From Liolophura sinensis (Eukaryota > Mollusca > Polyplacophora > Chitonida > Chitonidae): DNA of 64,000 bases. The stretch covers positions 17,985,501 to 18,049,500 of the forward strand of contig NC_088303.1 in the NCBI RefSeq assembly GCF_032854445.1, written 5' to 3'. Position numbers and translations under genes: made by a program. Positions 33,651-61,550 of this stretch are shown piece by piece. The notes beneath the pieces are model-generated. The model worked only from the letters and a program-made list of their open reading frames with translations. It made no database searches and had not been told where the DNA came from. How positions within the stretch are numbered: the stretch's first letter is position 1; each line of letters starts with the position of its first letter.

Positions 33651-35400
33651 ATCTAAGACACGCTATGATATATAGGAGTCTGGGAGACTTTCTGGTTATC
33701 ATTTTGCTCCCCCATAATCCAGTAATAAACGATAATAGTATCTGCGCATGTATGCAATGATGGCTGGGGAAAACACGTTTGTTTTACGTAACAAGTGGCT
33801 AGGTGACGTCGATTGTATTCGTTGCGAATGTCATATTGAGGTGATTGAACAATAAATCCGTTCCCCTGCGTACAATGACATACACGCTTAAGATCATCAT
33901 CTTTGACAAGGGAAAACGAGGTCAAGAATCCGAAGGAGGAAACCAAAGAGATATCCAGGCACACGGATCCATATGAGATGAACATCGCCATCTTTGAAGC
34001 ACGTAGAGGGCAGTGGCCTGTGGTCAAAGGGTGGACAACCTAGGGCCTCAACCCAGGACAAAAGAGAATGATGGATCTGATGCTATCTCATAAAGCACTG
34101 GTCTCGGGGCTAGTTGCGCTCTATAAGCCTAAAACGTAGTAGCTGGTTGCCCTGAAGAGATTACAAGAACGGTACCGGTACTGACTAAATGATTATACGG
34201 ATGTGTTGAATGGCCGATTATTAACATGCATCTAAAATTGCTGCCGGCTTCATGGTTCTTCAACAGTACGAGACACCTGTCTGTATAAACACTAGATTGG
34301 CAATAACCAAGCAATATGGAGCTCAAGTCACGCACGTTGGCTGTAACAGGAGATTAGGGATGACATTGCCCTACTGATGGTTGCCACCTCGAGCCATTGA
34401 GATTCATGCATGTTTGCTTGTTAGAAGATCAACGTTTCATTTAACATCATTTCTATCAGCAGACCTGTACCGCAACCAATCAGCGTGTACTTCATTACAT
34501 ATTTTCACTTAACCATCATGCTGGAAATCAAGACGAAGCTACGGTATTATGCCTGATTCCTTCAGATACAGTTGTAATAGCACTCAGTCGAATTATAAAT
34601 CATCCCAAACTGCATGTTATAAAAATAGTCTAACTTAAAATGCACACTCCAAATTGGTCACCAAGAACATGAAATACTGATAGTATTCACGATGGCCGAC
34701 AAAGCATTATCTGTGACCAGTTTTACTGACTGACTCACAATTAGTTTCACTGCTCGTTATCTTAGAGTGGTCGAATGTCTATTGATGTGCTATCTCGTAA
34801 ATCTGACAACCATATGTCAACAAGTTTGGTCAAAGCTAAAAAGTATCAAGCTTATATAACGGCAAGATCCCCTCACGTAACAGTTTATTCGACGTGGTTA
34901 ATAGGAAATTGTTAATAATTACTAAGGAACTTCTCTGGTCCACTGATTATTTGAGAAAAAGTCAAGGGCTGAAAATTATTGAACAGGTGCCTGACCATAA
35001 CAATAACCTTGATCCAACATAAAACACGAGATGTGTTGAACGCATTAAACTCCAAGGAGGAGTGAGATGACGTATATACATTGCCGTAGATTGGCAAATA
35101 ATAGTCCCGGACAGAAAGTTGTAGAGTTATTTAAGTGTAAAGAATGGTGTTTTATTATTTTATTACTCAGCATGATTCTTCAAGCATTCGATCGTGTCCA
35201 GGGTTACAATGCAGAAGTCAGAGAAAACTCATCACCTTACCAAACGCCAAGCAAACTTGTTGCAAAACTGAATACAGTACTTGTCTCACCAATACACCAG
35301 CTATATATAAATCCACCCCTTCAATCATCCAGGATCTGTAATATACAGATCCAACACATTCGCTCACCGACTCATGTAGAAGAATCTTGCCATCTCCTGC
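33650..35400. other. non-coding DNA
   Basis: Frames up to 124 codons (minus, 33653-34027) show no recognisable features. There is a possible decayed array-like lead-in at 35310-35400, just before the large minisatellite. Confidence 0.4.
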
Positions 35401-38400
35401 CTCTCGTATAAGCGTCAGGATAATCCACATCAAGCATCTAGGAACTCTCTCATACACATTCCTCCCACCTTCTGACACTCATATCAGTGTCCGCATAATC
35501 CGCATCAAGCATCTAGAACTCTCGTACACATTCCTCCCACCTTCCGACACTCATATAAGCTTCAGGATAATCCACATTAAGCATCTAGAACTCTCTCATA
35601 CACATTCCTCCCACCTTCCGACACTCATATAAGCGTCCGTATACTCCACATCAAGCATCTTGGAACTCTCTCATACACATTCCTCCCACCTTCCGACACT
35701 CATATAAGCTTCAGGATAATCCACATCAAGCATCTAGGCACTCTCTCATACCGATTCCTCCCACCTTTCGACACTCATATCAGCGTCCGCATAATCCACA
35801 TCAAGCATATAGGAACTCTCTCGTACAGTTCCTCCCACCTTCCGACACTCATATAAGCTTCAAGAAAATCTACATCAAGCATCTAGGAACTCTCTCGTGC
35901 AGATTCCTCCCGCCTTCCAACACTCATATAAGCTTCAGGAAAATCCACATCAAGCATCTAGGAACTCTCTCATACACATTCCTCCCACCTTACGACACTC
36001 ATATCAGCGTACGCATAATCCACAATAAGCATCTAGGAACTCTCTCGTACACATTCCTCCCACCTTACGACACTCATATCAGCGTACGCATAATCCACAT
36101 CAAGCATCTAGGAACTCTCTCGTACAGATTCCTCCCACCTTTCGACACTCATACAAGCGTCAGGAAAATCCACATCAAGCATCTAGGAACTCTCTCGTAC
36201 AGATCCCTCCCACCTTCCGATACTCATATAAGCTTCAGGAAAATCCACATCAAGCATCTAGGAACTCTCTCGTACAGATTCCTCCCACCCTCCAACACTC
36301 ATATAAGCGTCAGGATAATCCACATCAAGCATCTAGGAACTCTATCATACACATTCCTCCCACCGTTCGACACTTATATCAGTGTCCGCATAATCCACAT
36401 CAAGCATCCAGGAACTCTCTCGTGCAGATTCCTCCCACCTTCCGACACTCATGTAAGCTTCAAGATAATCCACATCAGGCATCAAGGAACTCTCTCATAC
36501 AGATTCCTCTTACCTTCCAACACTCATATAAGCTTCAGGATAATCCACATCAAGCATCTAGGAACTCTCTCGTACAGATCCCTCCCACCTTCCCATACTC
36601 ATATAAGCTTCAGGATAATCCACATCAGGCATCTAGGAACTCTCTCGTACAGATTCTTCCCACCTTCCGACATTCATATAAGCGTCAGGATAATCCACAT
36701 CAGGCATCTAGGAACTCTCTCGTACAGATTCCTCCCACCTTCCGACATTCATATAAGGGTCAGGATAATCCACATCAGGCATCTAGGAACTCTCTCGTAC
36801 AGATCCCTCCCACCTTCCGACACTCATATAAGCGTCAGGATAATCCACATCAAGCATCTAGGAACTCTATCATACACATTCCTCCCACCGTTCGACACTC
36901 ATATCAGTGTCCGCATAATCCACATCAAGCATCTAGGAACTCTCGTACACATTCCTCCCACCTTCCGACACTCATATAAGCTTCAGGATAATCCACATTA
37001 AGCATCTAGAACTCTCTCATACACATTCCTCCCACCTTCCGACACTCATATCAGCGTCCGTATACTCCACATCAAGCATCTAGGAACTCTCTCATACCGA
37101 TTCCTCCCACCTTCCGACACTCATATCAGCGTCCGCATAATCCACATCAAGCATATAGGAACTCTCTCGTACAGTTCCTCCCACCTTCCGACACTCATAT
37201 AAGCTTCAAGAAAATCTACATCAAGCATCTAGGAACTCTCTCCTACAGATTCCTCCCACCTTCCGACACTCATATAAGCGTCAGGATAATCCACATCAAG
37301 CATCTAGGAACTCTCTCATACGCATTCCTCCCACCTTCTGACACTCATATAAGCTTCAGGAAAATCTACACCAAGCATCTAGGAACTCTCTCATACACAT
37401 TCCTCCCACCTTCCGACACTCATATCAGCATCCACATAATCCACATTAAACATGTAAGAACTCTCTCATACAGATCCCTCCCACCTCGTTCCGGCTCTAA
37501 TATAAGCGTCCGAATAATCCAAATCAAGCACCAAGGAACTCTTTCGTACAGATCCCTCTCACCTTCTGACACTCATATAAGCGTCAGGATAATTCACATC
37601 AAGCATCTAGGAACTCTCTCATACACATTCCTCCCACCTTCTGACACTCATATAAGCTTCAGGAAAATCTACACCAAGCATCTAGGAACTTTCTCGTACA
37701 GATTCCTCCCACCTTCCAACACTCATATAAGCTTCAGGATAATCCACATCAAGCATCTAGGCACTCTCTCATACCGATTCTTCCCACCTTCCGACACTTA
37801 CATCAGTGTCCGCATAATCCACATCAAGCATCCAGGAACTCTCTCGAGCAGATTCCTCCCACCTTCCGACACTCATGTAAGCTTCAAGATAATCCACATC
37901 AGGCATCAAGGAACTCTCTCATACAGATTCCTCTTACCTTCCAACACTCATATAAGCTTCAGGATAATCCACATCAAGCATCTAGGAACTCTCTCGTACA
38001 GATCCCTCCCACCTTCCCATACTCATATAAGCTTCAGGATAATCCACATCAGGCATCTAGGAACTCTCTCGTACAGATTCTTCCCACCTTCCGACATTCA
38101 TATAAGCGTCAGGATAATCCACATCAGGCATCTAGGAACTCTCTCGTACAGATTCCTCCCACCTTCCGACATTCATATAAGCGTCAGGATAATCCACATC
38201 AGGCATCTTGGAACTCTCTCGTACAGATCCCTCCCACCTTCCGACACTCATATAAGCGTCAGGATAATCCACATCAAGCATCTAGGAACTCTCGTACACA
38301 TTCCTCCCACCTTCCGACACTCATATAAGCTTCAGGATAATCCACATTAAGCATCTAGAACTCTCTCATACACATTCCTCCCACCTTCCGACACTCATAT

Positions 38401-41400
38401 CAGCGTCCGTATACTCCACATCAAGCATCTAGGAACTCTCTCATACCGATTCCTCCCACCTTCCGACACTCATATCAGCGTCCGCATAATCCACATCAAG
38501 CATATAGGAACTCTCTCGTACAGTTCCTCCCACCTTCCGACACTCATATAAGCTTCAAGAAAATCTACATCAAGCATCTAGGAACTCTCTCCTACAGATT
38601 CCTCCCACCTTCCGACACTCATATAAGCGTCAGGATAATCCACATCAAGCATCTAGGAACTCTCTCATACACATTCCTCCCACCTTCTGACACTCATATA
38701 AGCTTCAGGAAAATCTACACCAAGCATCTAGGAACTTTCTCGTACGGATTCCTCCCACCTTCCAACACTCATATAAGCTTCAGGATAATCCACATCAAGC
38801 ATCTAGGCACTCTCTCATACCGATTCTTCCCACCTTCCGACACTTACATCAGTGTCCGCATAATCCACATCAAGCATCCAGGAACTCTCTCGTGCAGATT
38901 CCTCCCACCTTCCGACACTCATGTAAGCTTCAAGATAATCCACATCAGGCATCAAGGAACTCTCTCATACAGATTCCTCTTACCTTCCAACACTCATATA
39001 AGCTTCAGGATAATCCACATCAAGCATCTGGGAACTCTCTCGTACAGATCCCTCCCACCTTCCCATACTCATATAAGCTTCAGGATAATCCACATCAGGC
39101 ATCTAGGAACTCTCTCGTACAGATTCTTCCCACCTTCCGACATTCATATAAGCGTCAGGATAATCCACATCAGGCATCTAGGAACTCTCTCGTACAGATT
39201 CCTCCCACCTTCCGACATTCATATAAGCGTCAGGATAATCCACATCAGGCATCTTGGAACTCTCTCGTACAGATCCCTCCCACCTTCCGACACTCATATA
39301 AGCGTCAGGATATTCCACATCAAGCATCTAGGAACTCTCGTACACATTCCTCCCACCTTCCGACACTCATATAAGCTTCAGGATAATCCACATTAAGCAT
39401 CTAGAACTCTCTCATACACATTCCTCCCACCTTCCGACACTCATATCAGCGTCCGTATACTCCACATCAAGCATCTAGGAACTCTCTCATACCGATTCCT
39501 CCCACCTTCCGACACTCATATCAGCGTCCGCATAATCCACATCAAGCATATAGGAACTCTCTCGTACAGTTCCTCCCACCTTCCGACACTCATATAAGCT
39601 TCAAGAAAATCTACATCAAGCATCTAGGAACTCTCTCCTACAGATTCCTCCCACCTTCTGACACTCATATAAGCGTCAGGATAATCCACATCAAGCATCT
39701 AGGAACTCTATCATACACATTCCTCCCACCGTTCGACACTCATATCAGTGTCCGCATAATCCACATCAAGCATCTAGGAACTCTCGTACACATTCCTCCC
39801 ACCTTCCGACACTCATATAAGCTTCAGGATAATCCACATTAAGCATCTAGAACTCTCTCATACACATTCCTCCCACCTTCCGACACTCATATCAGCGTCC
39901 GTATACTCCACATCAAGCATCTAGGAACTCTCTCATACCGATTCCTCCCACCTTCCGACACTCATATCAGCGTCCGCATAATCCACATCAAGCATATAGG
40001 AACTCTCTCGTACAGTTCCTCCCACCTTCCGACACTCATATAAGCTTCAAGAAAATCTACATCAAGCATCTAGGAACTCTCTCCTACAGATTCCTCCCAC
40101 CTTCCGACACTCATATAAGCGTCAGGATAATCCACATCAAGCATCTAGGAACTCTCTCATACGCATTCCTCCCACCTTCTGACACTCATATAAGCTTCAG
40201 GAAAATCTACACCAAGCATCTAGGAACTCTCTCATACACATTCCTCCCACCTTCCGACACTCATATCAGCATCCACATAATCCACATTAAACATGTAAGA
40301 ACTCTCTCATACAGATCCCTCCCACCTCGTTCCGGCTCTAATATAAGCGTCCGAATAATCCAAATCAAGCACCAAGGAACTCTTTCGTACAGATCCCTCT
40401 CACCTTCTGACACTCATATAAGCGTCAGGATAATTCACATCAAGCATCTAGGAACTCTCTCATACACATTCCTCCCACCTTCTGACACTCATATAAGCTT
40501 CAGGAAAATCTACACCAAGCATCTAGGAACTTTCTCGTACAGATTCCTCCCACCTTCCAACACTCATATAAGCTTCAGGATAATCCACATCAAGCATCTA
40601 GGCACTCTCTCATACCGATTCTTCCCACCTTCCGACACTTACATCAGTGTCCGCATAATCCACATCAAGCATCCAGGAACTCTCTCGAGCAGATTCCTCC
40701 CACCTTCCGACACTCATGTAAGCTTCAAGATAATCCACATCAGGCATCAAGGAACTCTCTCATACAGATTCCTCTTACCTTCCAACACTCATATAAGCTT
40801 CAGGATAATCCACATCAAGCATCTAGGAACTCTCTCGTACAGATCCCTCCCACCTTCCCATACTCATATAAGCTTCAGGATAATCCACATCAGGCATCTA
40901 GGAACTCTCTCGTACAGATTCTTCCCACCTTCCGACATTCATATAAGCGTCAGGATAATCCACATCAGGCATCTAGGAACTCTCTCGTACAGATTCCTCC
41001 CACCTTCCGACATTCATATAAGCGTCAGGATAATCCACATCAGGCATCTTGGAACTCTCTCGTACAGATCCCTCCCACCTTCCGACACTCATATAAGCGT
41101 CAGGATAATCCACATCAAGCATCTAGGAACTCTCGTACACATTCCTCCCACCTTCCGACACTCATATAAGCTTCAGGATAATCCACATTAAGCATCTAGA
41201 ACTCTCTCATACACATTCCTCCCACCTTCCGACACTCATATCAGCGTCCGTATACTCCACATCAAGCATCTAGGAACTCTCTCATACCGATTCCTCCCAC
41301 CTTCCGACACTCATATCAGCGTCCGCATAATCCACATCAAGCATATAGGAACTCTCTCGTACAGTTCCTCCCACCTTCCGACACTCATATAAGCTTCAAG

Positions 41401-44400
41401 AAAATCTACATCAAGCATCTAGGAACTCTCTCCTACAGATTCCTCCCACCTTCCGACACTCATATAAGCGTCAGGATAATCCACATCAAGCATCTAGGAA
41501 CTCTCTCATACACATTCCTCCCACCTTCTGACACTCATATAAGCTTCAGGAAAATCTACACCAAGCATCTAGGAACTTTCTCGTACGGATTCCTCCCACC
41601 TTCCAACACTCATATAAGCTTCAGGATAATCCACATCAAGCATCTAGGCACTCTCTCATACCGATTCTTCCCACCTTCCGACACTTACATCAGTGTCCGC
41701 ATAATCCACATCAAGCATCCAGGAACTCTCTCGTGCAGATTCCTCCCACCTTCCGACACTCATGTAAGCTTCAAGATAATCCACATCAGGCATCAAGGAA
41801 CTCTCTCATACAGATTCCTCTTACCTTCCAACACTCATATAAGCTTCAGGATAATCCACATCAAGCATCTGGGAACTCTCTCGTACAGATCCCTCCCACC
41901 TTCCCATACTCATATAAGCTTCAGGATAATCCACATCAGGCATCTAGGAACTCTCTCGTACAGATTCTTCCCACCTTCCGACATTCATATAAGCGTCAGG
42001 ATAATCCACATCAGGCATCTAGGAACTCTCTCGTACAGATTCCTCCCACCTTCCGACATTCATATAAGCGTCAGGATAATCCACATCAGGCATCTTGGAA
42101 CTCTCTCGTACAGATCCCTCCCACCTTCCGACACTCATATAAGCGTCAGGATATTCCACATCAAGCATCTAGGAACTCTCGTACACATTCCTCCCACCTT
42201 CCGACACTCATATAAGCTTCAGGATAATCCACATTAAGCATCTAGAACTCTCTCATACACATTCCTCCCACCTTCCGACACTCATATCAGCGTCCGTATA
42301 CTCCACATCAAGCATCTAGGAACTCTCTCATACCGATTCCTCCCACCTTCCGACACTCATATCAGCGTCCGCATAATCCACATCAAGCATATAGGAACTC
42401 TCTCGTACAGTTCCTCCCACCTTCCGACACTCATATAAGCTTCAAGAAAATCTACATCAAGCATCTAGGAACTCTCTCCTACAGATTCCTCCCACCTTCT
42501 GACACTCATATAAGCGTCAGGATAATCCACATCAAGCATCTAGGAACTCTATCATACACATTCCTCCCACCTTCTGACACTCATATAAGCTTCAGGATAA
42601 TCCACATCAAGCATCTAGGAACTCTCTCATACACATTCCTCCCACCTTCTGACACTCATATAAGCTTCAGGAAAATCTACACCAAGCATCTAGGAACTTT
42701 CTCATACACATTCCTCCCACCTTCCGACACTCATATCAGCATCCACATAATCCACATTAAGCATGTAAGAACTCTCTCATACAGATCCCTCCCACCTCGT
42801 TCCGGCTCTAATATAAGCGTCCGAATAATCCAAATCAAGCACCAAGGAACTCTTTCGTACAGATCCCTCTCACCTTCTGACACTCATATAAGCGTCAGGA
42901 TAATTCACATCAAGCATCTAGGAACTCTCTCATACACATTCCTCCCACCTTCTGACACTCATATAAGCTTCAGGAAAATCTACACCAAGCATCTAGGAAC
43001 TTTCTCGTACGGATTCCTCCCACCTTCCAACACTCATATAAGCTTCAGGATAATCCACATCAAGCATCTAGGCACTCTCTCATACCGATTCTTCCCACCT
43101 TCCGACACTTACATCAGTGTCCGCATAATCCACATCAAGCATCCAGGAACTCTCTCGTGCAGATTCCTCCCACCTTCCGACACTCATGTAAGCTTCAAGA
43201 TAATCCACATCAGGCATCAAGGAACTCTCTCATACAGATTCCTCTTACCTTCCAACACTCATATAAGCTTCAGGATAATCCACATCAAGCATCTGGGAAC
43301 TCTCTCGTACAGATCCCTCCCACCTTCCCATACTCATATAAGCTTCAGGATAATCCACATCAGGCATCTAGGAACTCTCTTGTACAGATTCTTCCCACCT
43401 TCCGACATTCATATAAGCGTCAGGATAATCCACATCAGGCATCTAGGAACTCTCTCGTACAGATTCCTCCCACCTTCCGACATTCATATAAGCGTCAGGA
43501 TAATCCACATCAGGCATCTTGGAACTCTCTCGTACAGATCCCTCCCACCTTCCGACACTCATATAAGCGTCAGGATAATCCACATCAAGCATCTAGGAAC
43601 TCTATCATACACATTCCTCCCACCGTTCGACACTCATATCAGTGTCCGCATAATCCACATCAAGCATCTAGGAACTCTCGTACACATTCCTCCCACCTTC
43701 CGACACTCATATAAGCTTCAGGATAATCCACATTAAGCATTTAGAACTCTCTCATACACATTCCTCCCACCTTCCGACACTCATATCAGCGTCCGTATAC
43801 TCCACATCAAGCATCTAGGAACTCTCTCATACCGATTCCTCCCACCTTCCGACACTCATATCAGCGTCCGCATAATCCACATCAAGCATATAGGAACTCT
43901 CTCGTACAGTTCCTCCCACCTTCCGACACTCATATAAGCTTCAAGAAAATCTACATCAAGCATCTAGGAACTCTCTCCTACAGATTCCTCCCACCTTCCG
44001 ACACTCATATAAGCGTCAGGATAATCCACATCAAGCATCTAGGAACTTTCTCATACACATTCCTCCCACCTTCCGACACTCATATCAGCATCCACATAAT
44101 CCACATTAAGCATGTAACAACTCTCTCATACAGATCCCTCCCACCTCGTTCCGGCTCTAATATAAGCGTCCGAATAATCCAAATCAAGCACCAAGGGACT
44201 CTTTCGTACAGATCCCTCTCACCTTCTGACACTCATATAAGCGTCAGGATAATTCACATCAAGCATCTAGGAACGCTCTCATACACATTCCTCCCACCTT
44301 CTGACACTCATATAAGCTTCAGGAAAATCTACACCAAGCATCTAGGCACTCTCTCATACCGATTCTTCCCACCTTCCGACACTCATATCAGCGTCCGCAT

Positions 44401-45540
44401 AATCCACATTAAGCATCTAGGAACTCTCTCGTACAGATCCCTCCCACCTCGTTCCGGCTCTAATAGAAGCGTCCGGATAATCCAAATCAAGCATCTAGGA
44501 GCTCTCTTGTACAGTTCCTCCCACCTTCCGACACTCATGTAAGCTTCAAGATAATCCACATCAGGCATCAAGGAACTCTCTCATACAGATTCCTCTTACC
44601 TTCCAACACTCATATAAGCTTCAGGAAAATCCACATCAAGCATCTAGGAACTCTCTCATACACATTCCTTCCACCTTCCGACACTCATATAAGCTTCAGG
44701 ATAATCCACATCAGGCATCTAGGAACTTTCTCGTACAGATTCCTCCCACTTTCCGACATTCATATAAGCATCAGGATAATCCACATCAGGCATCTAGGAA
44801 CTCTCTCGTACAGATTCCTCCCACCTTCCGACATTCATATAAGCGTCAGGATAATCCACATCAGGCATCTAGGAACTCTTTCGTACAGTTCCTCCCACCT
44901 TCCGACACTCATATAAGCTTCAGGATAATCAACATCAGGCATCTAGGAACTCTCTCGTACACATTCCTCACACCTTCCGACATTCATATAAGCGTCAGGA
45001 TAATCCACATCAAGCATCTAGGAACTCTCTCATACAGATCCCTCCCACCTTCCGACACTCGTATAAGCTTCAGGATAATCCACATCAGGCATCAAGGAAC
45101 TCTCTCGTACACATCCCTCCCACCTTCCGACACTAATGTAAGCTTCAGGATAATCCACATCAAGCATCTAGGCACTCTCTCATACCGATTCCTCCCACCT
45201 TCCGACACTCATATTAGCGTCCGCATAATCCACATGAAGCATCTAGGAACTCTCTCGTACAGATCCCTCCCACCCTCCGACACTCATGTAAGCTTCAAGA
45301 TAATCCACATCAGGCATCAAGGAACTCTCTCATACAGATTCCTCTTACCTTCCAACACTCATATAAGCTTCAGGATAATCCACATCAAGCATCTAGGAAC
45401 TCTCTCATACAGATTCCTCTTACCTTCCAACACTCATATAAGCTTCAGGATAATCCACATGAAGCATCTAGGAACTCTCTCGTACAGATCCCTCCCACCT
45501 TCCGATACTCATATAAGCTTCAGGATAATCCACATCAAAC
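35401..45540 (+). repeat. 75-bp minisatellite, about 135 copies, higher-order structure
   Basis: The unit is CTCATATAAGCGTCAGGATA, then ATCCACATCAAGCATCTAGG, then AACTCTCTCGTACAGATTCC, then TCCCACCTTCCGACA (75 bp). Variants alternate, for example AAGCTTCAGG, CAGCGTCCGC and CATACACATT. Some units are 71-74 bp, such as those with AACTCTCGTACAC in place of the longer form. Because 75 is divisible by three and stops are rare in two plus frames, frames up to 185 codons arise with a 25-residue repeat ending QASRNSL. No signal peptide, splice site or stable frame supports a real protein. Variant order is duplicated in blocks (see the 2,841-bp entry). Confidence 0.97.
36820..42501 (+). repeat. 2,841-bp higher-order unit, two tandem near-identical copies
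   Basis: Rare variant monomers recur exactly 2,841 bp apart. CTCGTTCCGGCTCTAATATA occurs at about 37488 and 40329. CTCGAGCAGATTCC occurs near 37852 and 40693. The ATGTAAGCTTCAAG variant occurs at 37875/40716 and 38921/41762. The unit spans about 38 monomers. Similarity starts near 36820, continues to about 39660, and repeats to about 42501. A third, internally shortened version follows to about 44 kb. Near-identity means a recent duplication or an assembly artefact. Confidence 0.85.
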
Positions 45541-47592
45541 TCCACTAGCCAGCATAATAGTGTGATCCAGTCCCAATGACGCCCCTTCAGCCAACATAAC
45601 TGTGTGATCCAGACCCCAAGATATTCCTTTAACCAACATAATTGTCTGATCCAGACCCTTAGACACTTCTCTAGCCAGCATAATAGTCTGACCCAGACCC
45701 AAAGACACTCATCCAGCCAAAATAAGTCTGATCCAGGCCCCAAGACATTCCTCTAGCCAACATAATTGTCTGACCTAGACCCCAAAACACTCCTTCAGTC
45801 AACATAAATGTCTGATTCATATCCAAAATACTCCACTGGCCAGCATAAGTCTGATCCAGTCCCAATGACGGCCTTCCAGCCAACATGATAGTTTCATCCA
45901 GACCCACGTTGGCCCTTCAGCCGATGTAACTGTCTGACTCAGACCCCAAGACATTCCTTTAGCAAATATAATTGTCTGATCCAGACCCCAAGACACTTCT
46001 CTAGCCAAGATAATAGTCTGATCCAGACCCCAAGACACTTCTCTAGCCAAGATAATAGTCTGATCCAGACCTCAAGACACTTCTCTAGCCAAGATAATAG
46101 TCTGATCCAGACCTCAAGACACTTCTCTAGCCAAGATAATAGTCTGATCCAGACCCCAAGACACTTCTCTAGCCACAATAATAGTATGATCCAGACCTCA
46201 AGACACTTCTCTAGCCAAGATAATAGTCTAATCCACACTTCTCTAGCCAAGATAATACTCTGATTCAGACCCTAAGACACTTCTCTAGCCAACATAATAC
46301 TCTGATCCAGACCCCTACACTCCTCCAGCCAATATACAAGTCTGATCCATACCTCCAGACACTCCTCTAGCCAACATAACTGGCTGATCCAGACCCTAAG
46401 ACATTCCTACAGCCAGAATAATTGTCTGATTCAGACCACAAGACACTCCTTCAGTCAACATGATTGCCTGATCCTGACCCAAAATACTCCACTAGCCAAC
46501 ATATTAGTCTGATTCAGACCCAAGGACACTCCTCCATCCAATATGATTGTCTCATACCGACACAAAGACTCACCTCCAACTAACACATTTGTCTGATCGA
46601 GACACCAACAGCCAACATAACTATGTGATCCAAACCACAAGACACTCCTCCAACCAACATAACTGGCTGGTCCAGACCTGAGACATTCCTCTAGCCAACA
46701 TAAATATCTGATTCAGGCTCCAAGACACTCTTCCAGCCAACATAACTATCTGATCCAGACCCAAAATACTCATTCAGCCAACATAACTGTCTGATCCAGA
46801 CCCCAAGACACTCTTCCAGCCAACATAACTGGCTGATACAGACCCCAAGACACTAATCCAGCCAACATAATTGGCTGATCCAGACCCCAAGATGCTCTTC
46901 CAGCCAACATAACTCTCTGATCTCAACACCAAGACACTCCTTAAACCAACATAACTGTCTGATCCAGACCCCAAGACACTCTTCCAGCCAACATAACTCT
47001 CTGATCTCAACACCAAGACACTTCTTAAACCAACATAACTGTCTGATCCAGAGCCAAAGACACTCCTCCAGCCAACATAACTGGCTGATCCAGGCCCCAA
47101 GACACTCCTCCAGCCAACATAACTGGCTGATCCAGACCCCAAGACACTCCTCCAGCCAACATAACTGGCTGATCCAGACCACAAGACACTCCTTCAGCCA
47201 ACATAACTGTGTGATCCAGACCCCACGATATTCCTTTACCCAACATAATTGTCTGATTCAGACCCCCAAGACCCTTGTCTAGCCATCATAATAGTCTGAC
47301 CCAGACCCAACGACACTTATCCAGCCAAAATAAGTCTGATTCAGACCCCAAGACATTCCTCTAGCCAGCATAATAGTCTGACCTAGACCCCAAGCCTGAT
47401 CCAGACCCAATGTTGACCCTTCAGCTGATGTAACTGTCTGACCCAGACCCAGACCTCTGGCCAACAAAAATGTCTGATCCAGGCCCCAACACACTCTTCC
47501 AGCCAACATAATTGTCTGATCCAGACACTGAGACACTCATCCAGCCAACATAATTGTCTGACCCTAACCCAAAGACACTACTCCAGTACCCC
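45541..47592 (-). repeat. 42-bp minisatellite, about 48 copies
   Basis: The unit, plus strand, is GATAATAGTCTGATCCAGAC followed by CTCAAGACACTTCTCTAGCC and AA (42 bp). The cleanest copies are at 45990-46220 and 47060-47190; others vary. All three minus frames are largely stop-free and give 14-residue repeats such as LLSWLEKCLEVWIR. I regard these as by-products of a 42-bp unit. The array begins directly where the 75-bp array ends. Confidence 0.95.
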
Positions 47593-49218: not shown

Positions 49219-49929
49219 TTAATCACAAAGTGAAGGTATACTTGTTAACTTTGAAGGAGATTTTTGTGACCTTTGTTTCTTTTCTTTCTTTAAAACTGTC
49301 GTATCCACACTTGGTGTAAGTGGTACACAGGCTTTCAGCATTGGCAATGAAGTTCTCTTCTCACAATGTTTTTGTTTTAGCTGGGTGTTCTCTTCTTTCA
49401 ACAAACTTATTTCTCGTTTCAATGCCACATATTCCTTGAAATTTTGATTTTCCTGGTATAGCCGTAGTTTCTTTTTCAAGTTGACAATCTCTGCTACCAA
49501 GTTACCATACTCCATTTTCAGTTTTCTGCGCTCCTCTTCAGATTCTTTTAATGACTGAGTTAAGTTCTGAACATCGGCATATAGTTTGTTCACTAAAGAG
49601 TTGTACTCTGATTCTCTTTGGCTTAATTCTTGGTTTTCCTTATGTACTTTTGTCAGCCTCTTTGTCAGTGAATCCACTAATTCATGATCAGTCTTGTCAC
49701 ACTTAGCATCTTCCAACTGACTCTCAAGTTTAGATATTCTAAAATTCAGTTCTCTGTTCTTTTGATTGGCTTCTTTTAGTTCCTTCGTCAAAACTAAGGT
49801 TGCCTCCCTTTCCGCTTGAATTTTTTCAAGGTCTGTAACAGTCCTATCCTTCATGGTCCTGGAGTCCTCATTTTCTATTTGGAGTCTGTCAATTTGTGAT
49901 CTGGCATCTTCTAGCTGTTTCTTAAGTTC
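49219..49929 (-). CDS. coiled-coil gene, terminal coding exon (residues 146-381)
   Basis: The acceptor TTTGTTTTTAAG precedes GAACTTAAGAAACAGC. The exon encodes 236 residues to the stop at 49219-49221. Heptads run continuously over about 200 residues, including ELKKQLEDARSQIDRLQIEN near the start and LKREISLLKEENTQLKQ near residue 330. The last 40 residues are Lys/Ser/Pro-rich and end SIPSLCD. It is the longest unequivocal coding stretch in the window. Confidence 0.9.
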   Translation of the reverse strand, partial: ELKKQLEDARSQIDRLQIENEDSRTMKDRTVTDLEKIQAEREATLVLTKELKEANQKNRELNFRISKLESQLEDAKCDKTDHELVDSLTKRLTKVHKENQELSQRESEYNSLVNKLYADVQNLTQSLKESEEERRKLKMEYGNLVAEIVNLKKKLRLYQENQNFKEYVALKREISLLKEENTQLKQKHCEKRTSLPMLKACVPLTPSVDTTVLKKEKKQRSQKSPSKLTSIPSLCD

Positions 49930-52900: not shown

Positions 52901-55900
52901 AATTTTGGTCTACACTTAACTGACCTTGAGTGCAATGGAAAATACAGTACGCTTAAGTGATCTCTAGTGTAAATAACCTGCCTTTTAATACTGCATAGTA
53001 CTTCGACTCTCCTATACACGGAAGAAGACAATATTGCTTTGTAACTTCTGACCCTGATGCCTGCATATTTCTAGTGCTGACTAACTGGAATGTCATGCAG
53101 AAGACACCAGACAGGACAACCCACCAACACGCAGTATTCTGATTGTCCCTCCTTGCAGTAAGCTGATCCTAAAGCCCACATATTTATAGTGCTGACTCAC
53201 TGGAATATCGTGTAGAAGACACCAGATGGCACACCTCACCCAGACACAGTATTCTGATGTCTCTTTGTAATAGGCTGATCTTATTGCCCACAAGTTTATA
53301 GTACTGACTCACTGGATTGTCATGATGGATGTTCCCATCAAATCGGAGTGAACTAAGATTATTAGCCTACCCCCTTATGCTGAGTGAAGGGTGTCTCCCT
53401 AGGAAGGTATATATATGTACAAAGATTGACAATTCTGAGGACTATTGTAAGACCAGAGTCAGTATTGAACTCAGGATCTCCTGTTAACAGTAATGCAAGA
53501 TTTCTGCCCAGTAATATTACGACAATACAGCAAGTGCCTCAACATTTGTTCTTTTCAATCATGATATCATACAACAGACAAATTAAGGTAACTTTTTCCA
53601 TTACTTACTTTCACTGTGATATTTGCAATCATAAGTTACACCCCCATAAATGTATGCATAAAATAAAGTGAATTTATCATGGTGTATTATAGTTCAAGTA
53701 TAAAAAGCATTTGGTTACTCTCTTAATATGAACATGTCAATATTTGTTTTCAACATATTTTACTGTTTTAAAGGTTTGGGGTTCCACAAAGCCGCGTGAA
53801 CCTTCTACACTATAGCAAGTTTGGTATTCTTCACACGAACTGGTTCCACAAAGCCACATGAAACTTTACACTACAGCAAGTTAATCCACAAAGCCATATG
53901 AACCTTTAAACTACAGCAAGTTTGGTATTCTTTACAGGGGCTGAATCCACAAAGCCACATGAAACTTTACACTACAGCAAGTTAATCCACAAAGCCATAT
54001 GAACCTTTAAACTACAGCAAGTTTGGTATTCTTTAAAGGGGCTGAATCCACAAAGCCACATGAAACTTTACGCTATAGCAAGTTTGGTATTCTTAACACA
54101 AACTGGTTCCACAAAGCCATATGAACCTTTAAACTACAGCAAGTTTGGTATTATGGTTCCACAAAGCTGCATGAACCTTTACACTACATCCAGTTTGTAT
54201 GCTTAGCAGGGGCTGAATCCACAAAGCCAAAAGAATCTTTACAGCAAGTCTGGTATTCTTAACATGAACAGGTTCCACAAAGCCGCATGAACCTTCACAC
54301 TACAGCAAATTTGGTATTCTTTACAGGGGCTGAATCCACAAAGCCACATGAAACTTTACACTACAGCAAGTTAATCCACAAAGCCATATGAACCTTTAAA
54401 CTACAGCAAGTTTGGTATTCTTTACAGGGGCTGAATCCACAAAGCCACATGAAACTTTACGCTATAGCAAGTTTGGTATTCTTAACACAAACTGGTTCCA
54501 CAAAGCCATATGAACCTTTAAACTACAGCAAGTTTGGTATTATGGTTCCACAAAGCTGCATGAACCTTTACACTACATCCAGTTTGTATGCTTAGCAGGG
54601 GCTGAATCCACAAAGCCAAAAGAATCTTTACAGCAAGTCTGGTATTCTTAACATGAACAGGTTCCACAAAGCCGCATGAACCTTCACACTACAGCAAATT
54701 TGGTATTCTTAACAGGGGTTGAATCCACAAAGCCATATGGACCTTTACATTTTAGTAAGTTTGGTATTCTTAACACGCACTGGTTCCACAAAGCCGCATG
54801 AACATCTACACTACATCAAGTTTGGTATTCTTAACAGGGGCTGATTCCACAAAGCCATAGGAACCTTTTACACTACAGCAAGTTTGGTATTTTTAACACG
54901 AACTGGTTCCACAAAGCTGCATGAACCTTCACACTAAAGTAAGTTTGGTATTCTTAACAGGGGCTGAATCCACAAAACCACATGAACCTTTACCACAAGT
55001 TTAGTATTTTTAACATGAACTGGTTCTTAACAGGGGCTGAATCCACAAAGCCACATGAAACTTTACACTACAGCAAGTTTGGTATTCTTAACAGGGGCTG
55101 AATCCACAAAGCCACATGAAACTTTACACTACAGCAAGTTTGGCATTCTTAACAGGGGCTGAATCCACAAAGCCATATGAACCTTCACACTACAGCAAGT
55201 TTGGTATTCTTAACATGAACTGGTTCCACAAAGCCGCGTGAACCTTTCCACTAGAGCAACTTTTGGTATTCTTAGCAAAAACTGCTTTCATAGTCACATG
55301 GTTTTACCAATATGTACAGCAAGTTTGATATTCTTAACAGTAAATTACTCTACAAAGCCTTTAGAACCTAATACACTACAGTAAGTTAGGTATTCTTAGC
55401 AAGGGCTAAGCATTTAAACCCCAATGAAATAAAATTAATCATATTTTTAGTCCAAATCTAAAACATCATAATAGATTCCTGTCTACCATTTACAATTTGG
55501 TCAAAATTATCTCCTTAGCATTATAAATAGTACAGCAGCACTATGATAACGAAGTCAAAACTGGGTTTGTAGATGCAATCCCTGGAAATTACAATGTTAA
55601 ATATTGGCAATCATTATCCCATAAATCTGTTTGATTTTCTCTTACCAAAATGCAAAATGTTGCAACAGAGTGTCCACCATGGCAGCCAGTTATGCTCTGC
55701 TGCCTTTAAGTAAATCTGCTTCTTTTTAGTGCACATGCTTTGTTTTAGTGTAAACTACTTATTTGTCTGATACTTGTTTAACATTTTCAAAAGTTTCAAA
55801 AAAATTCAACTTATCACAATTCAGACAATTCAAATAGACTATGACATATCGCTAAAAACTATTTATAACTATTTGTGGTTATAAAGATATTTTAAAGATT

Positions 55901-58523
55901 TATCTTTATTACCGATACTAACATACATGTAGGTAAAATATCCATAAACAAAATGTAACAGGCAATATAAAACTATCATATTGTATACATTAAGTTAAAG
56001 GTTTCTTTCTTACTTACAGTATTTGTACTTATTTTCATAACAATAATTAATCTAACCAAATAAGTTGATTGCAACCACCATCAGAGAATACATAGGAAAC
56101 CTACAGCTCTACAACAGAAGCCAAACCAAGTACACAATACCCAGCCGTCTGATAGCTCAGTCTTACAAAAATGGTCAAGGGGAAATAACCCATGTCTCAA
56201 GCTAGGTTTAAATATCTCTGCAGAAATAGGCTACCAGATCAATATTTCTGGAAGGTTACTCCATCATCAATATATACACATAGTGAATAAACTCAATTCT
56301 GTGACATATTGTCAGTAAATGATTTATACCTACATACAATTTGAAAAAAGGTTGTTTCACCTCTAGTTCACTGTTGTGACTTCTCTGTGAGATTTCCTGG
56401 GAGAGCTGAGCATTTTCACTCTCTAACTTTGACAACTCTTCCTTGAGTGTGTCAATTTCATGCTGCATTCTCTGTTCCATTTCTATTTTCTCTGTGGCTT
56501 GTTTCAGCATCTGGAAAGACACAGCTGTCCACATTAATGACAATAGCTAACAATACTACCGTATGTTTAACAGTAATCAAATCATCATAACAACTGATAC
56601 AAGTACGTACCAGCACACGCTGTACACTTTACATATTTCACATCAGGTTTCTCTATACATGTACATATATGTATGAAAAAATACCAATTTGTTTATCTGA
56701 TCAATGTATTATGCTGTAGGCCTACTCAGTACTATTTAATTTTAATGCGAACCAGTTTATACATGTAGATGGAGGAAACTTGGCGCAGGTATTCAGTCTG
56801 TCCAGCTTGAGGAGAAATGTAAACAAAGCAAAGGTATTGCAGAATAAAACACTGTAAGTGATGGGCAAAGGCATGCAAAATGTTACAATCAATCAGTTTG
56901 ACGAACAAGGCACTACCAGTATCAAATTATACTTAAGAAATCATCTGAAGGGCAGTTTAAACAAAAACAAAGTAAGTGTTATACAGTCTTTAGCCTGTGT
57001 AGTCTTTCAAACCTAACTTCTGAAAGGCTAAAGCTACACATTTACAGATTACATATATATTAAAATATTTTAAAGATTTAATTTCAATATTTATTTGATT
57101 GCTGTTTTATGCCATACTCAAGAATATCTCACTTATATGATAGCAACCAACATTATGGTGGGAGAAAATCGGGCAGAGCCTGGGGGAAACCAACAACCAT
57201 TCATAGGTTGCTGGTGGACCTTCCCACGTGTGGCCGGAGAGGAAGCCAGTATGAGGTGGACTTGAACTCACAGCGACCGCATTGGTGAGAGGCTCCTGGG
57301 TCAATGTGCCACGCTGGCTCGCTAACAACCTCGGCCATGCAGGTTTAATGTACAGCTTTTCTTGAATGGGCTTGAAGTCCAGCTCATGATCGCTTCCTCT
57401 CCGGTCATATGTGGGAAGGCCTGCCAACAACCTGCAGGTAGCTGTGGGTTTCCCAGGGCTCTGCTCATTTTCCTCCCACCATAATGCTGGCCATTGTCAC
57501 ATAAGTGAAGTATTCTTGAGTATGGCTTAACCTCTAATCAAATAAATAAATCAATGGAATGGGATGTGGCTTCAACATATGAATCCTAATTCAAACAGTG
57601 GGCATTCATAGCATCATAAATACAATGATTACACAGCATTGAAGACCACAAACAATAAGGTTGTAAGTTCAAATCTAGGTGGATTAACCTGTCTGCCAGG
57701 ATGTACATCCAAATTAAGTACTTGAATATGGCATACAACCCTCATAAAAAATAAATAAATGAAATGGTACAAAAAGAACACTACCAACCTCTGCCCTGTG
57801 TTTTTCTGTCATCATTGCTGTTATATCATCTGTCCGTTTCAAAAACTGTTCCTGTAGTTTAGTCAGTCTTTCCTTACTCTCCTGAGCAAATGCATGAATC
57901 TCTTTGCATTTTAACATCTCTGCCTGAAAAAGATAACAGATATTAACTCTTTTTTAAACTATACCATTATTTGCACAAAAAACATTCATGCAATTCAGCA
58001 CATGCAAGACACATGAATACCTGCATGATATCTTCATATCTGAACAGTCAAAATACCACACCAAATTTTGTACAGGCATAGTAGGCCTACTTGTCTTCAG
58101 ATTTTTGATAATTAAATTAAGTTTACACTTCAAGCTTCAACACTGAACCGATATAAGCCTAGAGGCTTAATACTTAACATGTGCCAACAACTTCTGCATC
58201 GCACGATACTGTATTGCTACTTTTTTCCCAAACTGTAGTAAAATAATACACTAATATCTTAAAGGGAAGTAAGACAAAGAATGAACAGATGCAAGTACAT
58301 AGTATGGTATCGGCATGGTATTTAGTAAGCTAGGAATTCAGTTTGCAAATAATGCATTCATTATAATTATTACCTCCAGTAGCTCAATTTTTGCTTTCAT
58401 CTGTTTGTTTTCCAGTCCCAGTTCTTGGACAAACGAGAGTGTTTCAATGTGCCTCTTGGTGAGTCGCTCATCATCCTTAGACTGCTGCTCCTCCCTCGTT
58501 CCTCGATTATAGCAGTTCTGCAT
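49219..58523 (-). CDS. coiled-coil protein, 4 coding exons, 381 residues
   Basis: I do not recognise the family. Coding exons in transcript order are 58374-58523, 57789-57923, 56361-56510 and 49219-49929. They give 150, 135, 150 and 711 nt, every junction in phase 0. Introns are 450, 1,278 and 6,431 bp with GT-AG borders. The product is Glu/Lys/Gln/Leu-rich and almost wholly heptad-like from about residue 18 to 345. It ends in a short Lys/Ser-rich basic tail. There is no signal peptide or membrane segment. The start ATG at 58523 has A at -3, and no in-frame ATG continues upstream. An RFX-type X-box at 59062-59075 suggests a ciliary or centrosomal protein (inference). A small exon could be missing in the 6.4-kb intron. 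The family could be settled by a profile search. Confidence 0.8.
49930..51150. other. intron 3, AT-rich part next to the last exon
   Basis: Intronic DNA without a recognisable repeat or exon. Plus- and minus-strand frames of 76-80 codons here are not supported. Confidence 0.5.
51150..52110. promoter_or_regulatory. intronic candidate enhancer block
   Basis: A long, GC-balanced, repeat-free block inside intron 3. Words include TAATTAA at 51194-51200 followed by GGCTGTCA (MEIS/TALE-like), TGCATTGATTCC near 51353, and several CAAAATGG/AATTAG cores. It contrasts with the AT-rich, repeat-laden rest of the intron. Frames of 71-76 codons show no family. I infer an enhancer, possibly serving a neighbouring gene rather than its host. 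Confidence 0.32.
52110..53040. other. intron 3, AT-rich unique sequence
   Basis: No exon-like segment, repeat or RNA gene recognised. Confidence 0.5.
53041..53330 (+). repeat. about 115-bp degenerate tandem repeat, 2-3 copies
   Basis: GAAGACACCAGA recurs at 53100 and 53215. Shared flanking words are TAGTGCTGACT, ACTGGAAT and CAGTATTCTGAT. A third partial copy at 53290 has ACTGACTCACTGGATTGTC. The core GACACCAGA...CACAGTAT also occurs in the 66-bp array at 59.56 kb, upstream of the same gene. Confidence 0.75.
53330..53780. other. intron 3, AT-rich unique sequence
   Basis: A 95-codon plus-strand frame (53384-53671) without features. Nothing else recognised. Confidence 0.4.
53781..55410 (+). 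repeat. 61-bp minisatellite, about 27 copies, intronic
   Basis: The unit is CTGAATCCACAAAGCCACAT, GAAACTTTACACTACAGCAA, GTTTGGTATTCTTAACAGGG, G (61 bp). Two variants tend to alternate: TGAATCC units following AACAGGGGC, and GGTTCCAC units following AACACGAAC. This gives a loose 122-bp dimer. A block starting near 53937 is repeated from 54326 (offset 389 bp, about 6.4 units) with almost the same variant order. The array lies wholly inside intron 3. Confidence 0.93.
55410..56360. other. intron 3, AT-rich part next to exon 3
   Basis: Unique AT-rich sequence. No additional coiled-coil exon could be found by eye. Confidence 0.45.
56361..56510 (-). CDS. coiled-coil gene, coding exon 3 (residues 96-145)
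   Basis: The acceptor TCTTTCCAG precedes ATGCTGAAACAAGCC and the donor GAG|GTGAAA follows. It encodes MLKQATEKIEMEQRM through SQRSHNSELE, a regular heptad pattern with Leu at core positions. Phase 0 at both ends. Confidence 0.8.
57086..57342 (-). mobile_element. SINE, minus strand, in intron 2
   Basis: A full-length copy of the 9.57-kb family on the minus strand. The tail TTATTTGATT lies at 57091. The body reads ACTTATATGATAGCAACCAACATTATGG, and GACTTGAACTCACAGCGACC (57259-57278) is the complement of the B-box area. The head complement is CCACGCTGGCTCGCTAAC. A second copy faces it 25-30 bp away. Confidence 0.88.
57369..57555 (+). mobile_element. SINE, plus strand, head-truncated, in intron 2
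   Basis: A plus-strand copy beginning near the B-box region (TTGAAGTCCAGCTCATGATC) and running through GGCCTGCCAACAACCTGCAG, ACCATAATGCTGGCC and ATAAGTGAAGTATTCTTGAG to the tail TCTAATCAAATAAATAAATCAA. It is inverted relative to the copy at 57086-57342. Confidence 0.88.
57640..57763 (+). mobile_element. SINE fragment, second family, 3' end
   Basis: GTAAGTTCAAATCTAGG (B-box-like) is followed by GGATGTACATCC, AAGTACTTGAATATGGC, ACAACC and a tail of AAAAAATAAATAAATG. The phrases GGATGTACATCTAGGCACTTG and ATATTGGCGACAACC recur at 62.16 kb. The insertion ends about 25 bp from the exon 2 donor. Confidence 0.65.
57789..57923 (-). CDS. coiled-coil gene, coding exon 2 (residues 51-95)
   Basis: Preceded by the acceptor TATCTTTTTCAG and followed by the donor GAG|GTTGGT. 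It encodes 45 residues, starting AEMLKCKEIHAFAQESKERL and ending EKHRAE. It includes Cys56 and a Met-Met pair near residue 87. Both borders are phase 0. A SINE 3' tail ends only about 25 bp from its donor, within intron 2. Confidence 0.8.
58374..58523 (-). CDS. coiled-coil gene, coding exon 1 (residues 1-50)
   Basis: Starts with ATG at 58523 (MQNCYNRGTREEQQ) and ends with ELLE before the donor GAG|GTAATA. The charged N-terminus passes into heptad-like sequence from about residue 18. The open frame runs a further 14 codons upstream without ATG, so transcription begins upstream. An acceptor-like TTTACTACAG just before 58550 leaves room for a non-coding 5' exon, for example one ending at the donor-like CACG|GTAAAG at 58972. 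Confidence 0.75.
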
Positions 58524-58565
58524 GTTTGATGTTATTTGTGTGATGAGAACAGCTGTAGTAAACAA

Positions 58566-59310
58566 TCCAAACTGTTAAAGCTAACCAATTATGTTCACCT
58601 CAAAGTTTCACGTCACTGTAAAATGCATCACCCGGGAGGTCTACAAAGCACAAACCGGATAATGAAAACTAATCTCACACCACTTTCTTAGTTTATAAGG
58701 TTTTAGGTCGTGAGAAATCAGTAAATCACACTCATTGTGAAGCTGTTCTTATCGGTAATCGAATGGATTGTCCTTTTGCGGATTTTCTAAAATTGTCAGT
58801 TGTCTGATGGGACAAGTCGGGTCAAGTCAGATCAGATCACCACATTGCAGTGGTGCTGTTGTTGTTGTTGCGTTTCGCACACTTTGCCCTTGAACAGGCG
58901 CCTTTTGTGTGACTTTGACGCTTATTGAAACTTTTAACTTTATTACTAAACACTTCAAAAACTTGCTTTACCGTGAGGAACCACCAAAAAATGAACCCGT
59001 AGGAGTTGTTAAAGTTCAAAGCACGGTTTCACGCTCACATCCAGCTTCGGAAACGCGTTAGGTTTCCCTGGAAACGTCACAGCAAGAGTTGTCTCCCTTA
59101 CGCTGGGCACCCATACACCTGCATTCATACGGTAGCTGTACAAAGCAAAACTAGGGCCTGGGGAGTGAAACCAGAGCAGTGAGGATAGTGTGATTGTAAA
59201 ATCAGGGTTCTTGTTACTTTTGCCTTCATTGTGGATTTTATTCCAACGACTTATGTAAATCCTTAAAGAGTAACAACTAATATCCCCTTTCAACGCCATG
59301 GCTTAAGCAG
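58566..59310 (-). promoter_or_regulatory. promoter region of the coiled-coil gene, with RFX X-box
   Basis: GTTTCCCTGGAAAC at 59062-59075 matches the X-box GTTNCCATGGNAAC at all fixed positions but one. A CRE-like half site, CGTCA, overlaps at 59075-59079. The region is richer in CpG than its surroundings. A 96-codon minus frame opening at 59299 (ATG in the context AAGCCATGG, starting MALKGDISCYS) covers the X-box and has no clear link to exon 1, so I treat it as spurious. RFX factors control ciliary genes across animals (established). The link to this gene is inferred from position, about 540 bp above the ATG. Confidence 0.55.
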
Positions 59311-59559: not shown

Positions 59560-61550
59560 TATGCCAAAAGACACGTAACCATTACGCCTTTCACCTAGTC
59601 ACAGTATGCCAGCACCTGGCTGACTAGAACGTGCTGACGACACCAGATATGACAACTCACCCAGTCACACAGTATGCCAGCCCCTGGCTGAGGAGCACTT
59701 GCTGACAACACCATGTAAGACAACTCACCCAGTCACATCATGCCAGCACCTGGCTGCCAAGTACATGTTGATGACACCTGGTATGACAAATCACCCAGTC
59801 ACAGTATGCCAGCTCCTGCCTGCCAAGTACATGTTGATGACACCAGATATGACAAATCACCCAGTCACAGTATGCCAGCACCTGGCTGATGAGTACTTGC
59901 TGATGACACCAGATATGACAAATCACCCAGTCACTGTATACCAGCACCTGGCTGCCAAGTACATGTTGATGACACCAGATATGACAAATCACCCAGTCAC
60001 AGTATGCCAGCCCCTGGCTGATGAGTACTTGCTGATGACACCAGATATGACAAATCACCCAGTCACTGTATGCCAGCACCTGGCTGCCAAGTACATGTTG
60101 ATGGCACCAGGTATGACAGCTCACCTAGTCACAGTATGCCAGCACCTGGCTGCCAAGTACATGTTGATGACACCAGATATGACAAATCACTTAGTCACAG
60201 CATGCCAGCACCTGGCTGCCAAGTGCATGATGATGACAAGATATGACAAATCACCCAGTCACTGTATGCCAGCCCCTGGCTGCCAAGTACATGTTGATGG
60301 CACCAGATATGACAAATTACCTAGTCACAGCATGCCAGCAACTGCCTGCCAAGTGCATGATGATGACAAGACATGACAAATCACCCAGTCACTGTATTCC
60401 AGCACCTGGCTGCCAAGTACATGTTGATGACACCAGATATGACAACTCACCTAGTCACAGTATGCCAGCCCCTGGCTGATAAGTACATGATGATGACACC
60501 AGATATGACAAATCACCCAGTCACAGTATGCCAGCCCCTGGCTGATGAGTACTTGCTGATGACACCAGATATGACAAATCACCCAGTCACTGTATGCCAG
60601 CCCCTGGGTGCCAAGTACATGTTGATGGCACCAGATAGGACAAATTACCTAGTCACAGTATGCCAGCACCTGACTGCCAAGTGCATGATGATGACAAGAT
60701 ATGACAAATCACCCAGTCACAGTATGCCAGCCCCTGCCTGCCAAGTACATGTTGATGACACCAGATATGACAAATCACTTAGTCACAGCATGCCAGCCCC
60801 TGGCTGATGAGTACTTGCTGATGACACCAGATATGACAAATCACCCAGTCACTGTATGCCGGCCCCTGGCTGCCAAGTACATGTTGATGGCACCAGATAT
60901 GACAAATCACTTAGTCACAGCATGCCAGCCCCTGGCTGATGAGTACTTGCTGATGACACCAGATATGACAAATCACTGTCACAGTATGCCAGCCCCTGCC
61001 TGCCAAGTACATGTTGATGACACCAGATATGACAAATCACTTAGTCACAGCATGCCAGCACCTGGCTGATGAGTACTTGCTGATGACACCAGATATGACA
61101 AATCACTCAGTCACTGTATGCCAGCCCCTGGATGCCAAGTACATGTTGATGACACCAGGTATGACAACTCACCCAGTCACAGTGTGTCAGTCCCTGGCTG
61201 CCAAGTACATGTTGATGACACCAGTTATGACAACTCACCAACTCACTGTATACACACACCAGACATCACATCTCACCCAGTCATAGTATGTCAGCACCTG
61301 GCTGATTAGAATGTGCTGAAGACACCAGATATGACACCTCACCCATTCACTGTATACCCATGCCAGACATGACAACTCACCCAGTCACTGTATGCCAGTG
61401 CCTGGTTGATCAGTACTTGCTGACTAGACAAGACAACCCACCCAGACACAGAATGCCAGCACCTGGTTGACTAGTACATGCTGAAGACACCAGCTATGAC
61501 AACCCACTCAGTCACAGTATGCCAGTACCTGGCTGACCAGTACTTGCTCA
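59560..61550 (+). repeat. 66-bp minisatellite, about 30 copies
   Basis: The unit is TGATGACACCAGATATGACA, AATCACCCAGTCACAGTATG, CCAGCACCTGGCTGCCAAGT, ACATGT (66 bp). A variant with GATGAGTACTTGC in place of CCAAGTACATGT often alternates with it. The unit divides by three, so frames run 225 codons on plus and 128 on minus with 22-residue periods such as TNHPVTVCQHLAAKYMLM. Open frames on both strands, with none preferred, argue against coding. The array lies between the coiled-coil promoter and the next gene. Confidence 0.95.

Follow-up and report, generated by a model that had tools for sequence, protein, structure and literature searches.

Minisatellites of the VNTR type are tandem arrays with a unit of roughly 10–100 bp and a total length of about 0.5–30 kb. 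MS32 and CEB1 belong to the minisatellite kind that carries blocks of variant repeats and changes by misaligned exchange or strand-annealing repair, and Smith's model of unequal exchange predicts that such arrays should have diverged edges around a homogenised core. Centromeric alpha-satellite higher-order repeats consist of blocks of diverged monomers, and the blocks recur with an identity of about 99% or more. MS32 and CEB1 have also been named beside the human MSY1 locus as comparable minisatellites (PMC2599865).

Here, we examine a 75-bp tandem array in a 64,000-nucleotide stretch of the chiton Liolophura sinensis (hereafter the window; NC_088303.1, positions 17,985,501 to 18,049,500), determine the order of its monomers, and compare it with other arrays of the same genome. 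This genome was first published as Liolophura japonica, the species having since been corrected to L. sinensis (PMC12441733), and the published text gives an assembly of 632 scaffolds with a longest scaffold of 96,433,062, an N50 of 37,343,639 and a total of 609,495,693 (PMC11068029). We conclude that the array is very probably a non-coding minisatellite confined to a single locus, lengthened and shortened by homologous exchange in which misaligned copies stay in register, and that it most likely has no selected function.

A 10-kb array found at a single locus

Tandem Repeats Finder (TRF) reports one array at window positions 35403–45538, free of N throughout, with a period of 75, 135.4 copies and a score of 14817. 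Wrap-around alignment resolved it into 135 full monomers and two partial ends, and so the 10-kb, 75-bp minisatellite proposed by an earlier, sequence-only reading of this DNA was borne out. Most monomers are 75 bp long (104 copies), the others being 74 (18), 73 (7), 78 (5) or 72 bp (1); 62 of the 135 full monomers are distinct, and the mean pairwise identity is 88%. With a 75-bp unit and 10.1 kb in total, the array has the size of a minisatellite, and its interspersed variant repeats, like those of minisatellites, stand in non-random order. It lies near the middle of the 37,343,639-base scaffold NC_088303.1. Just upstream of its left edge, at 35302–35311, is a TATA-box-like stretch, TATATATAAA, which is probably a chance occurrence in AT-rich DNA.

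The sequence-only reading had also proposed a genome search for the monomer, which we carried out over 609,464,459 bases in 632 contigs, gaps and masked stretches included. All 16 exact matches to a 30-mer of the monomer fell inside the array. A 28-mer from the monomer core, allowing up to three mismatches, matched 121 times in the genome and 121 times in the window, the latter all within the array; since the two counts agree, there are no copies elsewhere at this stringency. The array is thus single-locus at the stringency tested, with a locus-specific unit as in minisatellites, and more diverged relatives would escape such a search. A genome-wide satellite is ruled out at the same stringency.

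Variant monomers recur in a common block order

The sequence-only reading had rested its case for block-wise duplication on a marker variant, ATGTAAGCTTCAAG, which we confirmed in exactly eight copies on the window's + strand, located as that reading gives them and separated by gaps of 1424, 1046, 1795, 1046, 1424, 1351 and 749 bp. That these gaps are whole numbers of units is correct, but it is trivial in any tandem array and so a weak reason for inferring blocks. Block duplication is shown instead because variant monomers recur in the same order. Clustering monomers at two differences or fewer and writing the array as a string of types revealed six consecutive blocks of 19, 14, 24, 14, 19 and 17 monomers on the + strand, which share a common variant order and each start with HIJKLL. 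These are block X (36373–37796, 1424 bp, 19 monomers, HIJKLLGBCMENAOPQARD), Y1 (37797–38842, 1046 bp, 14 monomers, HIJKLLSCMENARD), Z (38843–40637, 1795 bp, 24 monomers, HIJKLLSCMENGBCMENAOPQARD), Y2 (40638–41683, 14 monomers, identical to Y1 across all 1046 bp), W (41684–43107, 1424 bp, 19 monomers, HIJKLLSCMENAAOPQARD) and V (43108–44381, 1274 bp, 17 monomers, HIJKLLGBCMENAPQA*). The lengths of the first five blocks equal the first five marker gaps.

Superimposed on these blocks, a segment of 2,841 bp, or 38 whole monomers, is duplicated in tandem. Positions 36819–39730 match 39660–42571 (both +) letter for letter over 2,912 bp at a shift of 2,841, and the two copies overlap by 71 bp at a junction that lies within block Z. 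Accordingly, the longest diagonal along which monomers are near-identical (one difference or fewer each) spans 38 monomers at lag 38 with no differences in total, compared with a longest run of 4, seen in 7 shuffles, when monomer order was shuffled 1,000 times. Random variant order, which the sequence-only reading had named as the finding that would count against it, is therefore not what the array contains, and its claim of duplication at several scales holds at the level of the monomer, the 14–24-monomer block and the 38-monomer duplication. The 2,841-bp duplication is probably the latest event in the array; judging from the monomer string, the array without one of the copies would retain four older blocks, namely X, Y, W and V. 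Likeness among the older parts is also high, at 98.9–99.8% for HIJKLL copies whose resemblance is independent of the 2,841-bp duplication and 99.3–100% for CMEN copies.

The exactness of this duplication raises the question of whether it is an assembly error, in which reads were reused or haplotypes joined in tandem and the true array is shorter, with four blocks. According to the genome paper the HiFi reads average 8,347 bp at 14x, and heterozygosity is about 1.2% (PMC11068029); because the average read is shorter than the array, the number of copies in the assembly may be in error, and the zero differences across 2,912 bp speak for such an error. However, haplotypes joined at such heterozygosity should differ at about 35 sites where none is present, the two copies and their junction (5.75 kb) fit within an average read, and the HIJKLL copies unrelated to the duplication show the block order anyway. 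We therefore consider an assembly error unlikely.

Features that fit in-register exchange

Every one of the 93 exact repeat pairs of at least 100 bp within the array keeps the register of the 75-bp unit. Monomer S (m40), a marker of the shorter blocks, joins the first part of G (m21) exactly to the last part of B (m22), the two types that adjoin in block X; this hybrid fits with 0 mismatches, compared with 6 differences to G and 4 to B as single parents. A systematic search for exact one-crossover mosaics of two parent types, each at least 3 different, identified 9 of the 62 distinct monomers. In 200 column shuffles the mean was 1.42 and the maximum 6; because this null preserves column make-up and not monomer relatedness, the comparison may overstate the excess. 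Hybrid parents that we had named by hand failed for m122 (6 mismatches), m117, m128 and m59 (2 each), and m98 and m54 (1 each); for m117 and m98 the systematic search yielded other parents that fit exactly. Exact fits were also obtained for the A hybrids (m45 and m83), yet each is only one base from each parent, which makes them weak evidence.

Divergence is concentrated at the ends of the array. The mean difference to the nearest other monomer is 2.6 in the left 12 monomers (m2–m13; left edge 35403–36297, +), 0.09 in the middle 103, most of which have an identical partner elsewhere in the array, and 2.75 in the right 20 (m117–m136, including the right edge, m122–m136, at 44382–45507, +). Taken together, in-register repeats, hybrid monomers and diverged edges fit unequal exchange.

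We compared these features with a toy model, run 15 times per setting and unfitted, in which no setting matched every measure together. Exchange of blocks of 1–40 monomers produced longest runs of 9–42 at long lags, and under single-monomer exchange the median lag of the longest runs was 1. Of three mutation rates, the two higher gave block-exchange arrays whose edges diverged beyond the core, the effect being almost gone at the lowest; at the rate that came nearest to the array in mean difference, the model edges diverged less than those observed.

On the mechanism that we propose from one assembled haplotype, misaligned copies would exchange in register through unequal sister-chromatid or interallelic exchange, or through strand-annealing break repair, with each event duplicating or deleting a block that ranges from a single monomer to about 40. 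Four blocks, X, Y, W and V, may descend from copies of a founder block of about 19 diverged monomers; recombination of G with B, and between two A monomers, would have shortened some of them; and duplication of 38 monomers would be the newest step. Either crossing-over or strand-annealing repair may account for the array.

Sequence neighbourhood and possible function

The array is directly followed by a 42-bp minisatellite at 45547–47394, with 8 bases between the TRF limits and further copies to 47586, which likewise has one locus at this stringency, as 27 of 27 genome matches with up to three mismatches fall there. Two further arrays, with units of 61 bp (about 53783–55274) and 66 bp (59591–61251 or, with wider limits, to 61548), were also assigned longer periods by TRF, 389 and 262 bp. 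We detected no kinship among the 75-, 42-, 61- and 66-bp units (12 comparisons, lowest p 0.116). Strand asymmetry is strong across 35403–47394, with GC skews of −0.49 in the 75-bp array and −0.44 in the 42-bp array; skews of 0.53, 0.96 and −0.83 occur in arrays of sampled stretches L008, L009 and L025 (see below), and the median absolute skew is 0.195 in 18 arrays versus 0.07 in 35 1-kb pieces of the window.

On the minus strand, a 258-aa open frame of coiled-coil-like composition ends with a stop codon at 49219–49221, and similar short frames lie at 56259–56546, 57717–57953 and 58341–58574. These may be exons of one putative gene, in which case the 61-bp array would be intronic; the 61- and 66-bp minisatellites apparently lie in or beside introns of this gene. 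The 258-aa frame has no Pfam or PDB match, and four other open frames outside the arrays have no Pfam match. This putative gene would end 3.7 kb from the 75-bp array.

This proximity, 3.7 kb past the stop codon of the putative coiled-coil gene, and the directly adjoining second array might suggest a selected non-coding element, such as an insulator or a regulatory sequence acting on the adjacent gene, that is kept long. Against it, the array edges are diverged, and tandem arrays of at least five copies occur in more than half of arbitrarily sampled stretches (see below), so that we give this reading little credence. Most likely the array itself lacks any selected function, a view that is argued from absence. 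A hairpin-driven repeat was rejected: about 1.5 consensus monomers do not fold clearly better than shuffles (z −0.15 and −1.29), with 91 of 200 and 23 of 200 shuffles folding at least as well. Searches for known RNA families (gathering score) and for tRNAs (bacterial settings) found none.

Higher-order structure of an array near the middle of a 37.3-Mb scaffold also invites comparison with a small or chromosome-specific centromere, whose blocks would likewise be nested. However, the array is only 10 kb long and single-locus at the stringency tested, and so lacks the large array or family shared within or between centromeres; its block lengths are irregular, and in place of a uniform higher-order unit it has a 38-monomer unit that is exactly tandem in two copies; a putative gene lies close by; and arrays on other scaffolds have non-random monomer order too. 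A centromere is accordingly highly improbable.

A coding tandem repeat (of a mucin-like or secreted protein) can be dismissed with similar firmness: although 75 is divisible by 3, forward frames stay open for up to 496 codons and one open frame exceeds curated Pfam cut-offs (G8, 33.1 versus 22.9 bits; OB_RRP5_4th, 31.6 versus 31.5), every block contains frame-shifting 73- and 74-bp monomers so that no frame is kept across units, 496 codons is the limit in 10.1 kb, changes by codon position (111/120/113) show no bias, and no single stretch passes either Pfam cut-off alone, as expected when weak repeat matches are summed.

Tandem repeats elsewhere in the genome

To place the array in its genome, we sampled 26 hand-placed 6-kb stretches, two from each of 13 large scaffolds. 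TRF calls with a period of at least 10 cover 23,133 of 156,000 sampled bases (14.8%, bootstrap 8.9–22.1%), and arrays with 5 or more copies and a length of 150 bp or more cover 12.0% and are present in 14 of the 26 stretches; a shuffled control with N removed gave 0 of 155,800 bases. The sample includes an array of about 4.5 kb with a 98-bp unit at the end of stretch L033 (1514–6000, scaffold C13), a stretch that contains 200 N.

Non-random monomer order was detected in 8 of 20 arrays (4 from the window and 16 sampled, the 75-bp array among them), with p no higher than 0.01 on one or both of two measures and no correction for multiple testing. Among the positives, the longest run is only 1 to 6 monomers in the arrays of L010, L018 and L008, the 70-bp array of L030 and the 42-bp array of the window. 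The 61- and 66-bp window arrays did not pass, despite the multiples of their periods that TRF lists. As 7 of the 19 other arrays have non-random order, the 75-bp array is not special in kind here; the longest run in those 19 is 10, and none comes near 38.

The genome paper assigns 0.08% to 'Other (simple repeat, microsatellite, RNA)' and leaves 14.04% unclassified, and a term search of its main text returned no word beginning 'tandem' or 'satellite' (PMC11068029). For another chiton, Acanthochiton rubrolineatus, Table 4 of PMC11545220 gives 9.21% by Tandem Repeats Finder. In the searched text of PMC12005716 the term 'satellite' occurs 0 times. Among the matches listed in a search of open-licence literature by title, we found nothing on the 75-bp array or on the minisatellite load of Liolophura. 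The broader point of this work is that apparent load. We raise, tentatively and with more doubt than confidence, the idea that chiton genomes are unusually rich in single-locus minisatellites (about 12–15% of sampled bases), many of them evolving by kilobase-scale in-register block exchange, and that centromere-like higher-order structure would thus be routine in euchromatin where no centromere is present.

Discussion

The array is a well-resolved case of a known kind, a minisatellite shaped by in-register recombination. Its value lies in how cleanly it records block duplications one after another, in that a hybrid monomer remains at a putative deletion point and the latest duplication is perfect, and it suggests that higher-order repeat structure is possible without a centromere.

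Like the human MSY1-type hypervariable minisatellites or VNTRs described in PMC2599865, the chiton array has a unit of tens of base pairs, a single locus and blocks of variant repeats, and in both cases misaligned in-register exchange or repair by strand annealing is the explanation offered for the changes. The scale differs: length mutants at MSY1 involve 1–3 repeats in a 77-repeat allele (PMC2599865), whereas blocks in the chiton array reach 38 monomers.

Like centromeric alpha-satellite, the array has diverged monomers in blocks that are repeated at about 99% identity or more. The likeness to centromeric higher-order repeats drawn by the sequence-only reading therefore stands for the evolutionary process and fails for size, genomic distribution and uniformity of the unit: unlike alpha-satellite, the chiton array is a single 10-kb locus with irregular blocks, and it has two adjacent long copies rather than hundreds.
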